The translations under genes were made by a program, and so were the position numbers. The notes below the pieces were generated by a model that saw only the letters and a program-made list of their open reading frames with translations, was not told where the DNA came from and searched no databases. 64,000 nt of DNA from positions 3,596,001 through 3,660,000 of the forward strand of contig OY282455.1 of the NCBI GenBank assembly GCA_958296195.1, in the 5' to 3' direction. Positions 10,954 through 19,777 of this stretch are shown one piece after another (within the stretch, counting starts at the first letter, position 1; the number at the start of each line of letters is the position of its first letter). This DNA comes from an uncultured Pseudomonadales bacterium. GTDB taxonomy: Bacteria; Pseudomonadota; Gammaproteobacteria; Pseudomonadales; Azotimanducaceae.

Positions 10954-13511
10954 AGGTTCGGCCCGCGAGTCGGCACCGACAGCCAGGACAACAACACCGG
11001 CAACAAAAACACCGTGAACACCAGCAAGAGCGACACGGCAATGGCCAGCAACAAGCCGATGGAGGCGGTGCCGGCATGAGGCGAGAGCGACAGCGCCGAA
11101 AAGGCGCCCACCGTGGTCAGAGCGCTCAGCACCACCGCGCGGGGGGTGCTCGAATGCATGAGATGCGGAACCCCCCCCTCGCCGCGGTAGCGGTCCACCA
11201 CATGCACGCCGCTATCGACGCCGAGCCCGAACACCAACGGCATCACCAACACGTTGGCCATGTTCAAGGGCATGTCCAGCAGCACCCCCAGCGCCAACGT
11301 GAACGCCACGGCGAGCGCCAAGGGCACCACCACCAAGGCCGCATAGCGGACGCTCTGAAACATCACCAGCAGAATGCCGGCGATGGACACTAGGGCGAAC
11401 GCCAACGCCTGCTGAAAGGCGCCAACCACCACCTCGCCGACGCCCCACTCAATGACGGGACGCCCCGTCGCCGTCGGTGCGATGGCGCGGACCCCTTCAA
11501 TGAAGCGGGTCATGGCCCCGACATCGGCCACGTCCCCTTCGGGGAGCACGATGCCCAGTCGCTCATCGTTGCCGCCGGTGAACCGACGGCGAACTTCAGC
11601 CGGCACCGAATCCCCCGTGACCGGCGCGACCTGCAGCGCCCGCCGCAGCCACTCGAGCTCCTCAACCAAGTTGGGCACCACGCCCCGCTGCCAAAGCTGC
11701 AACTGCTGCGTCGGCCCCGCCGCCAAGGCGCTCAACGCCTCCTTGAGGTGGACAAGGCGGCCGCTGTCATCATGCCTCTCAATGGTCTGAACCAATTCCT
11801 CAACGCTGGTTCGCAGCTCGCTGGCCACCGGCGTCGGCAACTGCCGCAGCGGGGCCAAGGCGCTGGCGAGCATGAACTGCAAATCCTCCAGCACATAGAG
11901 TTTGTCCGCTTGGTCCTTGGGCACAAAGTCCGCATGGGTGATCACCGAGCCCACCACCGGCAGAGCCTCAATGGACTGCAGGGTGGATTCATCCGCGGAA
12001 ACCAGCAGCAGGGCATAGTCCGTGGCTTGGCCGCCCTCCTGCAGCTCCTGCAAGGTGCGCATGGAGTCAGCGTTCGGATCTTTGAGCGCCAAGGTGCTGT
12101 AGTCAAAGCGCATTTGACTGGCGCTGGCTACCGCCAGCACCGCCAGCACGGTAAACAGCGCCAGCACCTTGCGGCGATGGAGTATCAGAATGTTCACCAG
12201 CCGGGCGCTTGAGGGGATGGACATGACGTGGGACTTGATGGGGCCAAGAACCGCGAACAGCGCCGGCAGCAAGGTGAAGGTCAGAAACCCGGCGATGGCA
12301 ATGCCTCCGGCGGAAATGACGCCGAGATCGGCCAAGCCCTTGTAGTCCGTTGGCCAGAAGCCGAGAAAGCCGAGCGCCGTGGTGAGGGTGCAGACCACAA
12401 TGGCGCCGCCAACGCTGTGTACGGTCGATTCCAAGGCCGGGCCGACCGCGCCGGCACCGGTGTTGACCGCCTCTTGATAGCGTAAGGAGAAGTGGATGGC
12501 GAAGTCCACGCCGAGGCCGAAGAACATCACCATGAAGACGATGGACAGGGTGTTGTATTCGCCCACGGCCAACATGGCGTAGGCTGAAGTCAGGGCGATG
12601 CCGACCGCCAGCATGGCGAAGGTGGCGACGATGATCTTAAGCGACCTGACACCGAGGATCATGGCCACCGCCAGGAGCGCCACCGCCAGCCAGCCGGCGA
12701 GCTGCACACCACTCACCGCCGCTTCTATTTCCTCATGCGCCAGGGCCACTTCCCCAGTGATGCCCACCCGGACGCCGGGCGGGGCGCCGGCCGCGGCGAT
12801 CAGTTCGCGCAGTTCCCGCACCACCTCCGCATTGGCGGCGGTTTCGCCAAGTTGCAAATTGGTCTTGACCGCAATGAGCCGCCGCCAAGTCTCTTGGTCG
12901 TTGAAAAATTCATTGGCCCAATAGATGGTTGGGTCGTCACCGTCGAGCAGTGCGTTCGCCGAATCCCGCAGCAGCCCCACAACGCTCTCCGCGCCGCTGG
13001 GCAGTTCGTTCTCGATGCCATCGCCAAGCAAGCCGAGAATGCCGCGCAGGCTCGGGTCCTCGGCAACTGCGGTCAGCCAAGGCTGGGCTTCCGCCAAGCG
13101 GTCCGCGACTTCCTCGAGTTCCTGGTGGTCAAGGTACAGCAGCGCATGGTCGCGGAAGAACGGATGATTGTCCGGCGCGTAAACGGCCCGAAATCGATCC
13201 GGGCGGCGGCGAATCTCATCTTCAATGCGGCGGGCCGCATCCTCAACCTGCTTGAAGCCTGGCCCGGAAACCACCACTACGGCGGTTTTGACGTGGTCCG
13301 GAAACAACGACTCAAAGCGATCGAAGTGCTCGCGCCATGCAGCGTCCTGTTCGATGAGGTCGCCCAAATTGGCGTTCATCCTGAAGCGGTCCACGGCCAC
13401 CCAAGCTGAAGCGCCGGCCAGCAATGCAAGGCAGACCAGAGTCGTCCAAGGACGATTGGAAATCAGAACAACCCATCTGGCTAGGCTCTGTATCAGCCAG
13501 CGCTGAATCAT
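10950..13511 (-). CDS. HpnN-like RND/MMPL lipid transporter
   Basis: 853 aa with the RND arrangement: one N-terminal membrane helix, a periplasmic loop (about 40-250), a sterol-sensing-domain-like block of five to six helices (FGLGVDFAIHFSLRYQEAV), a second loop and another helix block (FGLGVDSGVHVVDRYRG). This is the HpnN/MMPL family, which shuttles hopanoids or other lipids to the outer membrane. Start and stop overlap both neighbours by 4 bp, showing one operon. No hopanoid cyclase gene lies in the window, so the cargo may be hopanoid, phospholipid or another hydrophobic molecule. Confidence 0.85.
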   Translation of the reverse strand: MIQRWLIQSLARWVVLISNRPWTTLVCLALLAGASAWVAVDRFRMNANLGDLIEQDAAWREHFDRFESLFPDHVKTAVVVVSGPGFKQVEDAARRIEDEIRRRPDRFRAVYAPDNHPFFRDHALLYLDHQELEEVADRLAEAQPWLTAVAEDPSLRGILGLLGDGIENELPSGAESVVGLLRDSANALLDGDDPTIYWANEFFNDQETWRRLIAVKTNLQLGETAANAEVVRELRELIAAAGAPPGVRVGITGEVALAHEEIEAAVSGVQLAGWLAVALLAVAMILGVRSLKIIVATFAMLAVGIALTSAYAMLAVGEYNTLSIVFMVMFFGLGVDFAIHFSLRYQEAVNTGAGAVGPALESTVHSVGGAIVVCTLTTALGFLGFWPTDYKGLADLGVISAGGIAIAGFLTFTLLPALFAVLGPIKSHVMSIPSSARLVNILILHRRKVLALFTVLAVLAVASASQMRFDYSTLALKDPNADSMRTLQELQEGGQATDYALLLVSADESTLQSIEALPVVGSVITHADFVPKDQADKLYVLEDLQFMLASALAPLRQLPTPVASELRTSVEELVQTIERHDDSGRLVHLKEALSALAAGPTQQLQLWQRGVVPNLVEELEWLRRALQVAPVTGDSVPAEVRRRFTGGNDERLGIVLPEGDVADVGAMTRFIEGVRAIAPTATGRPVIEWGVGEVVVGAFQQALAFALVSIAGILLVMFQSVRYAALVVVPLALAVAFTLALGVLLDMPLNMANVLVMPLVFGLGVDSGVHVVDRYRGEGGVPHLMHSSTPRAVVLSALTTVGAFSALSLSPHAGTASIGLLLAIAVSLLLVFTVFLLPVLLSWLSVPTRGPNL

Positions 13512-14389
13512 TCGATGGCGTCGGCCTCATCGAAAAAGCTGTCGAAGTCGTCCAGTGGCGGCGCCTCGTCATGAATCATGAACTCACGGATCTGGTAGTA
13601 GGCCTCACGGGTGAAGACGTAGGAATCAAGGGCCGCCGCATCCCGCGCATCGGTCAACGCCAGTGCATCCGCCCGGGCGCTCAGAAGGCCGACCCCACTC
13701 AACCAGAGTCGGTAGTCCTTGGGGACCGGACGTGGGTCAAAGAACGCGCTGAAGACCGTGGCCGGGATGTCGCGGAGAGTCGATGGTCCAAACAAGGGCA
13801 CATAAACGTAGCGGCTGTTGCGCCACCCCCACACCGCCAAGGTTTGGCCGAAGTCCTCGTTTTGAGCGGGCAGGCCGACCGGCGTCGCCACGTCAAAAAG
13901 ACCGGCCACGCCCAAGGTGCTGTTCAGCAAAAACCGCATCAAATCGGTGCCGCCGCCCCTGGGCTTGCCCTGCAGAAAGCCGTTGATGCTGCTGTCAACC
14001 GAAGTCAGGTTGGCGAAGAAGTTGGAGGCCCCCTTCTCCACCGGGTCCGGCAGCAGGCTTTGGTAGGCTCTGGCCGCAGGGGCAAAGAGGCTTCGATCCA
14101 CCTTGTCCGAAAACTCAAAGGAGGTTCGGTTGAAGCCTTCGTTGGTGTCGTAGGCGGCGGAATCGGCGCTGTCTCCGAGGCTGGCGCAGGCGGCTTGCAG
14201 CAGCGCTACGGTCGCCAACGGGCCAGCCCAGGCGCACCGCCGCAACAGCCGCGCACCCAACTGCCGCTTGGGCGCTGTCCTTGCCCTAGGCGCCTGAAGC
14301 CCGACGCTCAGTTGGTTTTGGGTCTTCGCCTCGCCAAAGTTGGCGCAAACTTCCATATGTTTCTCCCATCGGCCCCGCTGGGCCGGCAA
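13508..14389 (-). CDS. mlaA: MlaA/VacJ outer-membrane lipoprotein
   Basis: 293 aa from the first ATG; ATG 14356 gives a shorter leader. A lipobox LLQAAC marks the acylated Cys near residue 67, an unusually long leader if the first ATG is used. The mature part shows MlaA features: YDTNEGFNRTSFEFSDKVD near the N-terminus, then NFFANLTSVDSSINGFLQ, FGQTLAVWG and YVYVPLFGPSTLRD. MlaA removes misplaced phospholipid from the outer leaflet and passes it to MlaC. Here it sits between mlaC- and hpnN-like genes rather than with mlaFEDB, as in some hopanoid-type lipid-transport operons. Confidence 0.88.
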   Translation of the reverse strand: MPAQRGRWEKHMEVCANFGEAKTQNQLSVGLQAPRARTAPKRQLGARLLRRCAWAGPLATVALLQAACASLGDSADSAAYDTNEGFNRTSFEFSDKVDRSLFAPAARAYQSLLPDPVEKGASNFFANLTSVDSSINGFLQGKPRGGGTDLMRFLLNSTLGVAGLFDVATPVGLPAQNEDFGQTLAVWGWRNSRYVYVPLFGPSTLRDIPATVFSAFFDPRPVPKDYRLWLSGVGLLSARADALALTDARDAAALDSYVFTREAYYQIREFMIHDEAPPLDDFDSFFDEADAIE

Positions 14390-14430: not shown

Positions 14431-15036
14431 CTAATCGAGTGGCGCCGAGCCCGCCTCCGCAATGCTGGATTCAATGTGCTCAACCAGCGCAGGGAAACCC
14501 TTTTTTCTGATGATGCTGGCGTAGTCCGCCCGTCGCAACGACAGGTCGCTGACCCCGTCGGCCACCACATTGAACGCTTTGTCGCCGCGAAAGTAATAGT
14601 CCAGATTCACCGCTTCGCCGTTGGCGCGGATGAGTTGCGACTTGATGACCACGCCGGTGCTGGCGGCGGCCGCGTCCACCCGCTCAAACCGTTGGCCGCC
14701 GTAGCTGTCGAAGCGGTCCGCGTAGGTGGCGACGATCAGCCGCCCCAAGAGTTTGATGAAGGCTGCACGTTGCGCGTCCGGCAGGCTGCGCCAACTAGCC
14801 CCGACGCTGATGCGGGCAATGGTGGCCACGTCAAAAAAATCCGCCACGACCGGCTCCAGCAGCGCCAGCCGGGCAGCAAAGGCGTTGGTGCGCATGGCCT
14901 CGAGCAAGACGCTGTGGAAATGATCGACACGGCCGCCGGCCGCATCAGCCCCCTCCACTGCCCCGCCTACCGCCGGCGACCAGACCGCGGCCGCCATGAC
15001 AAGGCCGCCGGCCAAGGCGGCAAGGCGCCGCCGCAT
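14431..15036 (-). CDS. MlaC/HpnM-family periplasmic lipid-binding protein
   Basis: 201 aa from the ATG at 15034-15036, chosen because it opens directly on a signal peptide (MRRRLAALAGGLVMAAAVW). The mature protein has the Tol/Ttg2 (MlaC) pattern: LLEPVVADFFDVATIARISV, SWRSLPDAQRAAFIKLL, ADRFDSYGGQRF and YFRGDKAFNVVADGVSD. It carries lipid across the periplasm. It lies 63 bp after dctM and 42 bp before mlaA. In several bacteria the hopanoid-associated homologue is called HpnM; which lipid is bound here is unknown. Confidence 0.85.
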   Translation of the reverse strand: MRRRLAALAGGLVMAAAVWSPAVGGAVEGADAAGGRVDHFHSVLLEAMRTNAFAARLALLEPVVADFFDVATIARISVGASWRSLPDAQRAAFIKLLGRLIVATYADRFDSYGGQRFERVDAAAASTGVVIKSQLIRANGEAVNLDYYFRGDKAFNVVADGVSDLSLRRADYASIIRKKGFPALVEHIESSIAEAGSAPLD

Positions 15037-15098
15037 GAAAGCGCCCCTACACTGGATGCCCCCAAGGGTGGCCTGCAACAAAGCAGGTGCGCAAAGCC

Positions 15099-16397
15099 TC
15101 ATCGCACCAGCACCAAGGTGAACCAAGGAACGTAGGTGATCAGCAGCAGGGCCGCCAGCAACACCAGCATGAACGGCCAGCAAGCGGCGTAGAGCGCCAG
15201 TACCGGTTTGTTGAATCTATAGCTGGCGATGAACAGGTTCATGCCCACTGGCGGCGTAAAGTAGCCGATTTGCATGTTCGCCAAAAACACAATTCCCAAA
15301 TGCACGGGATCTATGCCGTAGCCCGCCGCCACCGGCAGAATCAAGGGCACCATGATAACCAAGGCGGAGAAGATATCCAACATCGCGCCCAACGCCAACA
15401 GCAGGATATTCAAAAGCAGCAGAAAGGCAATCGGGCTTTCGATGTGCGCCTGCATGAACTCGAACAAACGCTGCGGCACTTCCGCATCCACTAGAAAGCT
15501 GGTGAACGCCAAGGCTACGCCCAGTATCAACAGGATGCCGCCCACCATGACCATGGCCTTGACCGCAATGGAAGGCAGGGCCCTAAGGCGCAAATCCCGA
15601 TACAGCAGGGTCTCGGCGACCGTAACGTAAACTGCGGTCACCGCCGCCGCCTCGGAGATGGCGAAGTAGCCGGAATAGATGCCGCCCAGCACCACTATCG
15701 GCAGCGGCAGCTCCCAGCGGGCAGCCAGAAGCGCCGGCCAGATACGGGCGCGTTCCGCAGCTACGCCGGTCGGGTTGGAGGTCGGAACCGCCGAGCCGCG
15801 TCGTTGGACCCACAGCGTCCAAGCGACGAGGCAAGCCAGCATGAGCAGCAGCGGCAGCACTCCCGCCTTGAACAGATCTATGATCGTGAACGGCTCGCCC
15901 ACGTTGATCTGCTGCGCGATGACGCCGTAGAGAATGAGCGGCAAAGACGGCGCCAGCAGCAGGCCCAAGCTGCCGGAGGTGGTTACCAACCCCAAGCTGA
16001 AGCGCTCCCCATAGCCGGCCTGCAGCAAGGCCGGCAACAACAGGGCGCCCAAGGCGACGATGGTGACGCCGGAGGCCCCGGTCAGCGCCGTGAACAGGCC
16101 GCAGGCGATGAAGCCGACGATGGCCAGGCCGCAGGGCAGCCAGCCGAGCAGGCTCCGCACCAAGGCGACCAGCCGCTCCGAGGTCTTGGCTTCGGCCAGA
16201 ACGTAGCCGGCGTAGGTGAACAGGGGCAGAGCCACCAGCAAGGGCGTATCGACGATGCGGTACACCTCAATGGCCACCACCGTCAGATCGATGTCGGCGG
16301 CCAGAAAGCCCAGCATGGCGGCGGCCATGAGCACGGCGACCAACGGCGCTCCGGCCAAGGCCGCGGCCAACGTCAACGCCAAGCCGGCCCAAATCAT
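15099..16397 (-). CDS. TRAP transporter large permease (DctM family)
   Basis: 432 aa from the ATG at 16395-16397, which overlaps the small-permease stop (ATGA); an ATG at 16433 would need a 40-bp overlap. About 12 hydrophobic helices, with DctM motifs such as PLFTYAGYVLAE, LTGASGVTIVALGALLLPAL and the C-terminal MQIGYFTPPVGMNLFIASY. It uses the sodium or proton gradient to import solute delivered by the binding protein. It is the last of four TRAP genes. Confidence 0.9.
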   Translation of the reverse strand: MIWAGLALTLAAALAGAPLVAVLMAAAMLGFLAADIDLTVVAIEVYRIVDTPLLVALPLFTYAGYVLAEAKTSERLVALVRSLLGWLPCGLAIVGFIACGLFTALTGASGVTIVALGALLLPALLQAGYGERFSLGLVTTSGSLGLLLAPSLPLILYGVIAQQINVGEPFTIIDLFKAGVLPLLLMLACLVAWTLWVQRRGSAVPTSNPTGVAAERARIWPALLAARWELPLPIVVLGGIYSGYFAISEAAAVTAVYVTVAETLLYRDLRLRALPSIAVKAMVMVGGILLILGVALAFTSFLVDAEVPQRLFEFMQAHIESPIAFLLLLNILLLALGAMLDIFSALVIMVPLILPVAAGYGIDPVHLGIVFLANMQIGYFTPPVGMNLFIASYRFNKPVLALYAACWPFMLVLLAALLLITYVPWFTLVLVR

Positions 16398-16873
16398 CGG
16401 GGCACCAAGGTGTGCAGCAGGTAGCGCAGGCATATGACCGCCGCGCCGAAGGGCAAGACGGCTTCGCAGAGCCAGGCCGGAACGGCGCCGAAGGCGATCA
16501 TCCCGTCTGCGTGTTCAAAGAGCACGAACTGCAGGCTGAACCAAGCGAAAACGCCGAATACGGCGCAGGTGAAGCCGTTGGTGAAGCGGGCGAGAGGCCG
16601 ACGCCAGCGGGCCGGAGCGAAGCGGGTCGCCAAATCGATTCGGATGTGTTCATCGCTGCGGGAGGCCACCATGGCCCCCACCATCGCCACCCAGATCACC
16701 AGCACCCGCACCAAGGCGTCTCCCCACAGCAGGCCAGTGTCAAACAGGTTGCGGGCCGCCACCTGATAGGCGGCCACGCCGATGATGGCGGCGAGGATCA
16801 ACACCAACAGGCCGTCCTCCAGCCGCCGCAGCCAAACCAAGACCAACCGCAAGGCGCTCAGATCAGCCGGCAT
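16394..16873 (-). CDS. TRAP transporter small permease (DctQ family)
   Basis: 159 aa from the ATG at 16871-16873, preceded by GGAAGGGG. Four membrane helices, with the DctQ-like WGDALVRVLVIWVAMVGAM and SRSDEHIRIDL. It forms the membrane complex with the large permease through a 4-bp gene overlap. About 240 bp separates it from dctP upstream, a gap with no gene seen. Confidence 0.88.
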   Translation of the reverse strand: MPADLSALRLVLVWLRRLEDGLLVLILAAIIGVAAYQVAARNLFDTGLLWGDALVRVLVIWVAMVGAMVASRSDEHIRIDLATRFAPARWRRPLARFTNGFTCAVFGVFAWFSLQFVLFEHADGMIAFGAVPAWLCEAVLPFGAAVICLRYLLHTLVPR

Positions 16874-17116
16874 GTCCGTCCCCTTCCGACTGCCCCGCCC
16901 GGCAAGGCCGCAGACAGCGCCGCATCGGCGCACTCATTTCCAATACGAACCCATCTGAAATTTCCCCAGAGCGAATCCAAAGCCCGTCGAGACGCATTTT
17001 CTTCCCGCCTAGACGCCCTTTGCACACCCCTAATGGCGAATTGCACCCACCAACCCCGAACAACCACGGACTATGCAGATCCTTCGCCGGCTATGGAGCG
17101 GCGTACAGGCTAGGGA

Positions 17117-18181
17117 TCAGGAGCCGGCCCGGAAAGCAGTGAGATGCTCCAGCAAGGCGGTGTGCAGGTCGCCGGAAACATAGCCCTCCTGCACCAGCCG
17201 CGCCGAGGCTCGGTCGGCCAGCACACGCCACTCCGCCGCTTCGTCGGGGGAGGCCGACAGCCAAGTCAGCCCTTGGTTGGCCAGCGCCGTGGATGCCTGC
17301 TCATGGTCCTGGCGGCTGCGGGCGTTGACCTTGGCCACCATCTCCCCCATCACTTGGCGCACAGCCCGTTGGTCAGCCTCGTCGAGCCCGTCAAAGCGGC
17401 GTTTGTCGATGGCCAGCAGGCCGTAGATGTAGAGCAGGGGCAGATCCAGCACATGAGTCACGCGGGTGTGCCATTGCAGGGCGATGGCGCCCACCGGCGG
17501 CGCGGCAATGCAATCGATCAGGCCAGTCTGCAAGCCGCCGAGCACATCGACGATGGGCAAGGGAATGGGCGTCACCCCGAACGCCTGCAGCGCCTGCGCC
17601 GAGGCCGGGTCGTTGTCCGGCGTCCAGACCCTCTGCTTGCCGGCGTCCGCCACGCTGGTCACTGGGTTCTGCGACATGGCGTAGGCAAAGCCAACTTCGG
17701 CGAAGCCAAAGGCGACGAAGCCTCGCTCCTCCAAGCCGGCCATCAGCCTCCCGTCCAGACGCTCGCGCACATAGTCCGCTTCGGCACCGGAGCGGAACAG
17801 CATCGGCAGGTTGTACAAGGCGATGTCGGGATAGACCTGCACCAAGGCCCCGGCGGTCATCACCGCGCCGTGCAACTGACCTACCCGCATCTTACGCAGC
17901 ACCGCCTTGTCGTCTCCCATCACCCCGCCGGGATAGAACTTGAAGGCGACGCGACCTTCGGTTGCCGCGGCCACGCTTTCACCGCCGGCGCGCAGCAAGT
18001 TCATCCACACGGAGCCCTCCGGCGACAAAGCGGCGATCTTCAGGGTTGCGCCGGCGGCGAAGGTGGGCCAAAGCGCAGCGCCGACGACGGCCAGCGCCAA
18101 CCCAGCCAGACGCAAAACCCTAACCTGGCTGATTAGAGCGGCAACAGCAACAATCAACCAGCTGGAACTAGAAGTAGGCAT
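17117..18181 (-). CDS. TRAP transporter solute-binding protein (DctP family)
   Basis: 354 aa with a long hydrophobic N-terminus, probably a signal peptide ending near LWPTFAAGA (residues about 25-45). It has the DctP fold motifs: LKIAALSPEGSVWMNLLRA, GRVAFKFYPGGVMGDDKAVL, NLPMLFRSGAEADYV and GLIDCIAAPPVGAIALQW. Its start overlaps the TatT gene by 14 bp. Binding proteins paired with TatT (the TPAT subgroup, Tp0957 in Treponema) have been proposed to bind hydrophobic ligands, suiting the lipid genes downstream. Confidence 0.88.
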   Translation of the reverse strand: MPTSSSSWLIVAVAALISQVRVLRLAGLALAVVGAALWPTFAAGATLKIAALSPEGSVWMNLLRAGGESVAAATEGRVAFKFYPGGVMGDDKAVLRKMRVGQLHGAVMTAGALVQVYPDIALYNLPMLFRSGAEADYVRERLDGRLMAGLEERGFVAFGFAEVGFAYAMSQNPVTSVADAGKQRVWTPDNDPASAQALQAFGVTPIPLPIVDVLGGLQTGLIDCIAAPPVGAIALQWHTRVTHVLDLPLLYIYGLLAIDKRRFDGLDEADQRAVRQVMGEMVAKVNARSRQDHEQASTALANQGLTWLSASPDEAAEWRVLADRASARLVQEGYVSGDLHTALLEHLTAFRAGS

Positions 18182-19148
18182 CGGCGGTCTCCATCAATCC
18201 TTGAGCGCGCCGCTTGGCGACAGCGTTCATCAACGTCAGTTCGGGAACTTCGACATCGGCGGCTAGAACCTGGTTGAGCAGATCATCATGGAGAGGGCGG
18301 TCAAACACCAGCCGAGCGTACTGCTCCGCGAACATCACCAAGGTGAGCAGATGCTTGCCCTCGGCCAGCGCCAAGGCGCGTTCAAAGTGGGCGCGACCCA
18401 CCTCCGGCCGGCCGCCCAAGGCCGGCGGCAGCAGAGTTTCAAACACCCCAAGGTACAGGTGCGGCCCACCGTATTCGTAGCCCTCATCGAGTTCGGCGAT
18501 GCGCTGCATCAAAACCTTCACCTTGCCCAAGTCGGCAATGGCGTTGAAGTCGTCGCTGTTGGCCTGCATCCAAGCCGCCCAAGCGGTCGCCAAGCCGTAG
18601 GCCAAGGGCACGTCCTCCCTGCGCAAGGCCAAAGTCCAACGCTCGAATTCCGCAAAGGGCTTGCCGGCCACCCCGCAGCCACCTTCAACCCCAAGGCAAA
18701 GCGCCCGTTCCGCCAAGCCCTTAGCCTTGGCGGCCATCAGCCGGCTGCGCTCGCCGCGCTCCACAAAGGCGCCGGCATAGGCCGAATTCAGCAGTGCAGC
18801 TTGGGACAATAGGGTGACGCTGTCCGGGCTGCCCTCCAAGAGGCCGTCAATCAACAGCAGAAAGGCCGGCGCTCCCTCCCGCACAACATCCATGTCGGGG
18901 TTCTCCAATATCGCCGCCGCCAAGTCCCCGGCCAGGTTCTCCGTCACCGAAGACACCAAGGTGGTACAACCGGCCAACGCGAACAGGCACACCAGCAGCA
19001 CGCCGCGACAGACGGCCCCTCTGCGCCGGACGCCGCCGAGCCGAGCCGAGGGCCCCGCCGCTTCCGCCACGTCAACCGCCGCACTGGCCCGACAGCCGCA
19101 TTGGAGCATCCGCCAACAGAGGCAACGAGCGACGGCCGGCGCAGTCAT
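18168..19148 (-). CDS. TatT-family TPR lipoprotein of a TRAP transporter
   Basis: 326 aa as drawn. The lipobox LFALAGC places the lipidated Cys near residue 61, so translation may begin further downstream; no clear ribosome-binding site decides. The helical mature part matches the TatT component family (Tp0956-like): LLLIDGLLEGSPDSVTLLSQ, LNSAYAGAF and the strongly conserved GGPHLYLGVFETLLPPALGG. TatT forms a trimer with three binding proteins in TPAT systems. It is the first gene of the minus-strand TRAP and lipid-transfer run. Confidence 0.85.
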   Translation of the reverse strand: MTAPAVARCLCWRMLQCGCRASAAVDVAEAAGPSARLGGVRRRGAVCRGVLLVCLFALAGCTTLVSSVTENLAGDLAAAILENPDMDVVREGAPAFLLLIDGLLEGSPDSVTLLSQAALLNSAYAGAFVERGERSRLMAAKAKGLAERALCLGVEGGCGVAGKPFAEFERWTLALRREDVPLAYGLATAWAAWMQANSDDFNAIADLGKVKVLMQRIAELDEGYEYGGPHLYLGVFETLLPPALGGRPEVGRAHFERALALAEGKHLLTLVMFAEQYARLVFDRPLHDDLLNQVLAADVEVPELTLMNAVAKRRAQGLMETADAYF

Positions 19149-19207: not shown

Positions 19208-19777
19208 TCAGCTCGCAGCGGCCTGCACCGCGGCAAGCACCTCTTCCATCGGCGGCCTTTGCCGATACCCCGGCACAGCGAACTTGGCCACTACGGCACC
19301 TTCCGCCGAAATGTAGAAGATGCCCGGATGGGGTATGCCGTGGGCGCTGTGGCCGGGCTCGTACTCCTCGTTCAGCACGTTGAAGCCGAGCACATGCTTG
19401 GCGTCCTCATCGCTGAGCAGGGGATAGCCCAATTCCCGGTCGGCGTGAAAAGCCGCCAGAACCTCCACGTCGTCATAGGTCATGCCGGCCACTTTGACGC
19501 CGACCGCTTCAAATTGCTCTCGCCATTCCTCCAGTTGAACCAACTGGTGCATGCAGAAGGGTCACCAATCGGCGGAGCGGTTCAGAAACAGCACCAGCCC
19601 CCGCTCACCCGCCAAGGACCCCAAGTCCCGCAAGGCGCCGCTTTGGTCCTGGGCCTCAATGGCCGGTGCCTTGGCGCCCACGGCCAAGCCCCAACCATCC
19701 GCATAGTCGTCCGCCAACGCCGCCGCCGCCAGCATGGCCGCGACCCAAGCTGCCACGGCAATCATTGCCTGCTTCAT
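19208..19777 (-). CDS. Secreted peroxiredoxin-like redoxin with in-frame UGA (putative selenoprotein, UPFC)
   Basis: 189 codons from the ATG at 19775-19777, which has GAGG 9 nt upstream; ATGs at 19786 and 19795 are alternatives. Residues 1-22 form a signal peptide ending AAALA. The redoxin fold follows (GAKAPAIEAQDQSGALRDLG, then GLVLFLNRSADW), then a TGA at codon 72 (19562-19564), and the same fold resumes in the same frame (PFCMHQLVQLEEWREQF, HGIPHPGIFYISAEG). Relatives have Cys at the TGA position (DWCPFC), so this reads as a UxxC redox motif with selenocysteine. A hairpin with a GGUUC loop begins 14 nt after the UGA, as expected for a bacterial SECIS. It would act in periplasmic thiol or peroxide chemistry. 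A nonsense mutation is the alternative, but the downstream frame is intact. Confidence 0.8.
19531..19547 (-). promoter_or_regulatory. SECIS-like hairpin downstream of the UGA codon
   Basis: On the minus strand CCAGTT-GGTTC-AACTGG forms a 6-bp stem with a 5-nt loop carrying G and U. It starts 14 nt after the UGA of the redoxin gene, with loop bases at +21 to +25. The E. coli fdhF SECIS also presents a GGU-containing apical loop at about this distance, where SelB binds. The match is by eye. Confidence 0.6.

Follow-up and report, generated by a model that had tools for sequence, protein, structure and literature searches.

A very probable selenoprotein of predicted peroxiredoxin fold and predicted secretion, often encoded ahead of a TatT-TRAP gene row in a gammaproteobacterial family

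A redoxin gene with a stop codon inside its frame may be a broken gene, a pair of genes, or a single gene whose product contains selenocysteine (Sec). The locus described here raises this question, together with that of what such a product would do in front of a row of transporter genes. The window, i.e. the whole stretch of 64,000 nucleotides that was analysed, comes from a genome assembled as a single contig of 4.31 Mb and 98% complete. Its 16S shares 87% identity with that of a Halioglobus isolate, and 77-78% with those of two alphaproteobacterial genomes and an acidobacterial one that gave long matches, which would make it a gammaproteobacterium; of the 14 genomes compared, five had no match and five had partial matches only, including three MAGs labelled Gammaproteobacteria at just 73-79%. 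Positions 19208-19777 of its minus strand are open from ATG to TGA except for a single in-frame TGA at codon 72 (19564-19562). The initial annotation had proposed a new selenoprotein at this place, and was silent on the minus strand, on the TatT-TRAP operon downstream, and on the conservation of the gene across the family. The features of the gene are the following:

19208-19777, minus strand: selenoprotein redoxin gene, 189 residues plus stop, with an AhpC-TSA domain at residues 33-164
19562-19564, minus strand: in-frame TGA, assigned as selenocysteine 72 of SADW-U-PFC from the comparison of the TGA site across genes
19712-19777, minus strand: signal-peptide-like N terminus, MKQAMIAVAAWVAAMLAAAALA followed by DD, recognised by eye; helix at residues 2-26 in the structural model
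19531-19547, minus strand: putative SECIS core hairpin, 7 bp with a GUU loop, its stem beginning 14 nt 3' of the UGA

The protein matches PF00578 (AhpC/TSA) with 79.3 bits, for a cut-off of 26, and its UxxC motif is UPFC (residues 72-75). With the signal-peptide-like N terminus, this bears out the earlier description of a secreted redoxin with a UPFC site, and the protein presumably goes to the periplasm, as predicted from its sequence. None of the NCBIfam models listed for it scores above its own cut-off. Apart from Sec, the only cysteine is Cys75, so that the two would form a two-residue redox pair. An alignment with 34 relatives of the gene contains 33 with Sec and one with Cys. Standard gene callers had been expected to split the gene, and the table-11 ORFs of at least 80 aa indeed include only the part of the frame located 3' of the TGA (19208-19552, minus strand, 114 residues). 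Selenocysteine insertion at codon 72 is by far the best reading of these data, and the apparently split gene almost certainly encodes a single secreted redox protein with selenium at its active site.

We searched 195 genomes, including that of the window, and found a homologue at 1e-10 in 96 of them. At least one match with a single TGA was present in 91 genomes: 90 of the 120 from the same genus or family, as judged from their numbering (G000-G119), and one from another family (G122). By our own tally, 10 of these 91 have only one of two other Sec types, a longer one or a third, more distant one. Only TGA-free matches were found in G109, G128, G142, G162, and G194, the match in G109 spanning just residues 88-186. 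Of 130 loci passed through a motif filter, seven were not captured (L072, L073, L074, L290, L299, L308, and L311) and were read separately. Once identical 54-nt stretches were merged, there were 111 distinct genes, including that of the window, and 106 of them have TGA at the codon-72 site (84 short Sec genes, 18 longer ones, and four of the third type). The other five have TGT (L070), TGG (L044/L091), or are TGA-free with Ser or PrxQ-type sites (L072, L073, and L074). Since the same TGA is found in 105 other related genes, a base-calling error in the window is very unlikely.

The TGA had been said to lie exactly where homologues have the first Cys of CPFC, and this was confirmed: Cys occupies the position in 80 homologues from named genomes, 46 of which were aligned. 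This set holds Cys forms only, because the scan pattern was built with Cys codons (177 matches confirmed, 80 kept). In a class-wide sample of 369 genomes, 36 gave a match at 1e-15, including that of the window; no match from the 35 others contains a TGA, and three contain a TAA.

A stem-loop with a GGUUC loop had been noticed 14 nt past the TGA. It exists as a 6 bp variant of CCAGUUG-GUU-CAACUGG, which otherwise forms 7 bp with a GUU loop and pairs nucleotides 15-21 after the UGA with nucleotides 25-31. Its geometry does resemble that of bacterial SECIS elements. The limits given in excerpts of PMC13188914 are a stem of 4-16 bp, a loop of 3-9 nt with G in its first two positions, a distance of 16-37 nt between UGA and loop, and an energy of -7.5 kcal/mol or lower, and the window hairpin lies within them (loop 21 nt after the UGA, -8.4 kcal/mol for the 23-nt core). 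Taken alone, the hairpin is unremarkable: when the 63-nt stretch was shuffled by dinucleotides, 163 of 200 shuffles folded as well or better, and among synonymous recodings of the gene, 202 of 500 are as stable as the native form. The folding of this one sequence is not significant, and we rejected it as a proof of the SECIS element. The support for the putative element is comparative rather than drawn from the window sequence alone.

The control for this comparison was synonymous recoding, since conservation also extends to the protein in this segment (QLVQL). Each gene was recoded according to the codon frequencies of that gene, or to pooled frequencies where these were sparse, and the third-type genes were excluded from the hairpin, loop, and operon counts. 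In a first set of 43 genes, 283 of the 301 pairs form, compared with a maximum of 243 in 500 recodings. In the full set of 84 short Sec genes, 541 of the 588 pairs form, while 1000 recodings reach 449 at most, and 17 long Sec genes form 105 of 119 (maximum 89; one of the 18 contains an N and was left out), the rows of both sets being related and not independent. The same treatment of the 80 Cys homologues gave 294 of 560 pairs for 295.7 expected (sd 7.4), i.e. no excess pairing. In a set of 38 distinct sequences, 93.2% of cells pair, and covariation scores 0.378, whereas shuffles give 0.161 and none of 500 is as high; the score is at most 0.163 when the partner strand is slid along. Two of the five measures in this test are no better than shuffles (4 double-change pairs for 3.7, and 8 further pair types for 7.5).

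The loop starts with G followed by G or U in all 102 short and long Sec genes, against 12 of the 80 Cys homologues, which fits the SECIS model in the excerpts of PMC13188914. The codon under the loop encodes Val (GU) in 90 of the 102 and Gly (GG) in 12. That it is always GUN or GGN suggests that an RNA signal is shaping the protein sequence. The third-type genes (L290, L299, L308, and L311) form three to five of the seven pairs in the register of the window hairpin; inspection by eye shows in them a differently registered hairpin, UCGCCG-AGUUA-CGGCGA or close to it, with its loop 16 nt after the UGA.

The search of the genome for selA, selB, selC, and selD, which had been suggested as a check, with their absence as a ground for refutation, found all four above their curated cut-offs. 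The genes selA (3050871-3052184, 518 bits), selB (3052217-3054055, 401 bits), and selC (3054101-3054189, tRNA-Sec, 74.4 bits) are consecutive, and selD (274 bits) lies about 6 kb beyond them. ARAGORN calls selC as a tRNA-SeC with anticodon tca. Across the genomes searched, selA was found in 84 of the 91 with the TGA form and in 25 of the 104 without it (Fisher odds 38); the 84 include G024, G026, G035, and G080, where the evidence consists only of fragments below the cut-off. A convincing selA is missing in seven of the 91, six of which are at most 88% complete and one (G108) 96% complete: the selA search gave no match in G036, G055, G084, G096, and G108, and a weak match only in G072 and G075. 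The predicted UGA recoding, the SECIS element, and the Sec machinery have strong sequence support, and the selenoprotein reading is nearly as firm as it can become from sequence data.

Several relatives depart from the window gene. The longer Sec type, with SAVWUPPC and similar motifs, comprises 18 genes from several genera of the same family; in the one tested (L075:3298-4542, minus strand), the redoxin domain is followed by DsbD_N, and no NCBIfam model scores above cut-off. The third type carries HWUPYCVAELRRW, with TGA at the same site. The gene L070 has Cys at the site and forms three of the seven hairpin pairs; its genome (G162), from the same order, retains selA. At L084:5268-6500 (minus strand), two Sec redoxin genes stand in tandem upstream of TatT, one with UPYC (six of seven pairs) and one with UGSC (five of seven). 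Finally, L044/L091 in G024 looks decayed, with TGG at the Sec site and TAG and TAA further on; it is followed by matches to TatT, DctP, DctQ, DctM, MlaC, and MlaA, and selA occurs in this genome only as fragments.

That the TGA is a true stop, or a miscalled TGC or TGT, in a broken redoxin gene can practically be dismissed: the unremarkable folding of the window hairpin alone and the decayed-looking copy in G024 would agree with it, but 106 of the 111 distinct genes share this TGA and are conserved in protein sequence on either side of it, the RNA hairpin is conserved too, and the genome of the window contains the complete Sec machinery. The locus could otherwise hold two genes, one for a truncated peptide upstream and one for a separate protein starting at the internal ATG at 19552 (MHQLVQ). 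The window does have this ATG four codons past the TGA, where the table-11 ORF begins. However, this Met is replaced by K, Q, R, I, or W in most relatives, the downstream piece would be devoid of the redox motif and of the first strands of the fold, and the Cys homologues are single unbroken proteins, all of which makes two genes highly improbable. We keep the reading of one secreted peroxiredoxin-like selenoprotein, a periplasmic redox enzyme with the UGA of codon 72 translated as Sec, and put its probability at roughly 0.9.

An AlphaFold2 model of the protein, built with 46 Cys homologues, has a mean pLDDT of 93.5. Its best Foldseek matches in the PDB are peroxiredoxins (PrxQ/BCP, BcpB, and AhpE), with target-normalised TM scores of about 0.8. 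A profile alignment places Sec72 on the first Cys of the WCPHC motif of ResA, and Cys75 on the Cys of PrxQ that we take to be the peroxidatic one. Together, this alignment and the structural matches point to a peroxiredoxin fold with the active site of a thiol-disulfide reductase. Export and fold are predicted, and redox catalysis by Sec72 and Cys75 would follow from this arrangement. The genome has one DsbD_N match and one DsbD_TM match, adjoining, each in a 749-codon frame, and DsbD is probably the electron donor of the redoxin.

Downstream of the redoxin gene, on the same strand, the window contains the following row:

18168-19148, minus strand: TatT, TRAP T-component lipoprotein (PF16811, 226.6 bits); exact start uncertain
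17117-18181, minus strand: DctP, TRAP solute-binding protein (PF03480, 107.3 bits); start uncertain
16394-16933, minus strand: DctQ, TRAP small membrane subunit (PF04290, 91.9 bits)
15099-16433, minus strand: DctM, TRAP large membrane subunit (PF06808, 250.1 bits)
14431-15183, minus strand: MlaC, phospholipid-carrier family (PF05494, 112.1 bits); start uncertain; near the likely end of the operon
13508-14389, minus strand: MlaA lipoprotein (PF04333, 209 bits)

Of the 84 short Sec genes, 37 are followed by TatT on their own strand at a distance of up to 4 kb, and 33 of these at up to 0.5 kb. DctP and DctM are also present in 26 of the 37 loci, the other 11 having at most 1.5 kb of downstream sequence; MlaC, MlaA, or both are found in nine, these 11 loci being too short to show them. 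TatT is absent within 4 kb in the remaining 47 genes, two of which have less than 1.4 kb of sequence, and the 16 such loci that we inspected have varied neighbours. No TatT-TRAP-Mla neighbours were found for the 18 long Sec genes or the 80 Cys genes, in flanks of up to 8 kb (shorter in some contigs). In the tree, the TatT-linked genes labelled so far are scattered over the main Sec clade. Elsewhere in the order and class, outside the family, all 20 TatT-TRAP loci fetched were without such a redoxin in the stretch, which implies that the transporter can work without the Sec redoxin. The ORFs upstream of TatT in 10 loci of other orders, read by eye, were mixed genes with no obvious replacement redoxin.

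As a side result, the TatT of the window (18168-19148, minus strand) has a C-x6-C pair, C151 and C158. This pair is found in 17 of 18 aligned linked TatTs, with the same counts at both positions, the odd row being a misread frame of L056. We rejected it as a dedicated disulfide substrate, since 23 of 35 TatTs of other families also have it and it is unspecific.

What the redoxin does beside this transporter can be read in several ways. One is that it works as a selenoperoxidase, its substrates being lipid hydroperoxides that the TatT-TRAP and Mla proteins carry. The PrxQ-like fold, the presence of MlaC and MlaA in the same gene row, and the hydrophobic ligands proposed for TatT systems, passed from TatT at the outer membrane to the binding protein (PMC5812351, excerpts), are in line with such an activity. 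However, the UxxC of the active site is that of ResA-type reductases and not the TxxC or TxxU of peroxidases, and we regard this role as unlikely. Another is that the protein serves redox or peroxide chemistry of the periplasm in general and stands before tatT for historical reasons, without functional tie to TRAP. The TatT-free short Sec loci with their varied neighbours, and the redoxin-free TatT-TRAP loci of other families, are what one would expect in that case. Against it stand the order and strand kept in 37 genes, mostly at 0.5 kb or less, and the spread of the TatT-linked genes over the main Sec clade. We give the absence of a tie a little under an even chance, and a functional tie between the redoxin and the TatT-TRAP transporter roughly equal odds of being true or not. 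The best reading of the candidate role is a periplasmic selenol/thiol oxidoreductase serving or protecting the TatT-TRAP system.

The following mechanism is proposed. SelB and the Sec-tRNA, made by SelA, SelC, and SelD, would bind the hairpin that closely follows the UGA; at this codon the ribosome would insert Sec and then continue to 189 residues. The finished protein would be exported to the periplasm with Sec72 and Cys75 as its redox centre, Sec72 attacking a disulfide or a peroxide and Cys75 resolving the intermediate. The oxidised pair would be recharged, most likely by DsbD. As the redoxin gene is the first of the row TatT-DctP-DctQ-DctM(-MlaC-MlaA), the protein would most likely keep the TatT-TRAP(-Mla) proteins or their hydrophobic cargo reduced. 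A bolder reading, which we regard as unlikely, is that a selenium-dependent periplasmic redox step is built into the uptake of hydrophobic ligands by TatT-TRAP(-Mla), and that the repair of oxidised cargo or carrier helped to retain Sec across this gammaproteobacterial family.

The claim of a new selenoprotein holds for the member and not for its kind. Selenoproteins of PF00578 with UxxC are already known: the Prx-like thiol:disulfide oxidoreductase (PF00578, UxxC/UxxU) is listed in Table 1 of PMC13188914, and Prx-like UxxC selenoproteins also appear in the excerpts of PMC2398784 and PMC1088965. The new parts are the near-fixation of the gene in one gammaproteobacterial family and its operon link with TatT-TRAP, neither of which was found in print among the literature matches listed. 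In these matches, neither selenoproteins nor peroxiredoxins were evidently linked with TRAP/TPAT or with DsbD, and nothing relevant appeared on new gammaproteobacterial selenoprotein families. Judged by the matches listed, the locus is the first known lead that connects a selenoprotein of the periplasm with a TRAP transporter, and this link makes the question of the redoxin's substrate testable. The result also puts right the annotation of a gene that standard callers would cut in two, and does so for most of the genomes sampled from one bacterial family.

Among known systems, the Prx-like thiol:disulfide oxidoreductase ('Prx-like 1' in the Global Ocean Sampling) shares with the window protein PF00578, a UxxC motif with Sec first, and a SECIS-like hairpin past the UGA. 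The lineage of the window differs from the catalogued proteins, compared here by their description, in that it looks secreted and in that 37 of its 84 short genes precede TatT-TRAP. The SelL-related profile NF040769 matches all 35 aligned members (residues 36-127 of the window protein), but the window protein scores 38.9 bits, below the curated cut-off of 120. The fold is common to PrxQ/BCP and AhpE; in these, the position three residues ahead of the peroxidatic Cys has T or S, as in the TxxC/TxxU criterion for peroxiredoxins, whereas in the window protein it is Sec72. The reductases ResA, TlpA, and DsbE share the W-C/U-P-x-C motif, a periplasmic location, and a plausible electron supply of the DsbD type. 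The window protein differs from ResA (NF002854) by its score of 30.4 bits for a cut-off of 170, and by full-length profile and fold matches that are PrxQ-like. As to the TPAT (TatT-associated TRAP) transporters, TatT, DctP, DctQ, and DctM are all found downstream of the window redoxin with Pfam matches above cut-off, and the window locus differs in having separate DctQ and DctM, a Sec redoxin before the row, and MlaC and MlaA after it.
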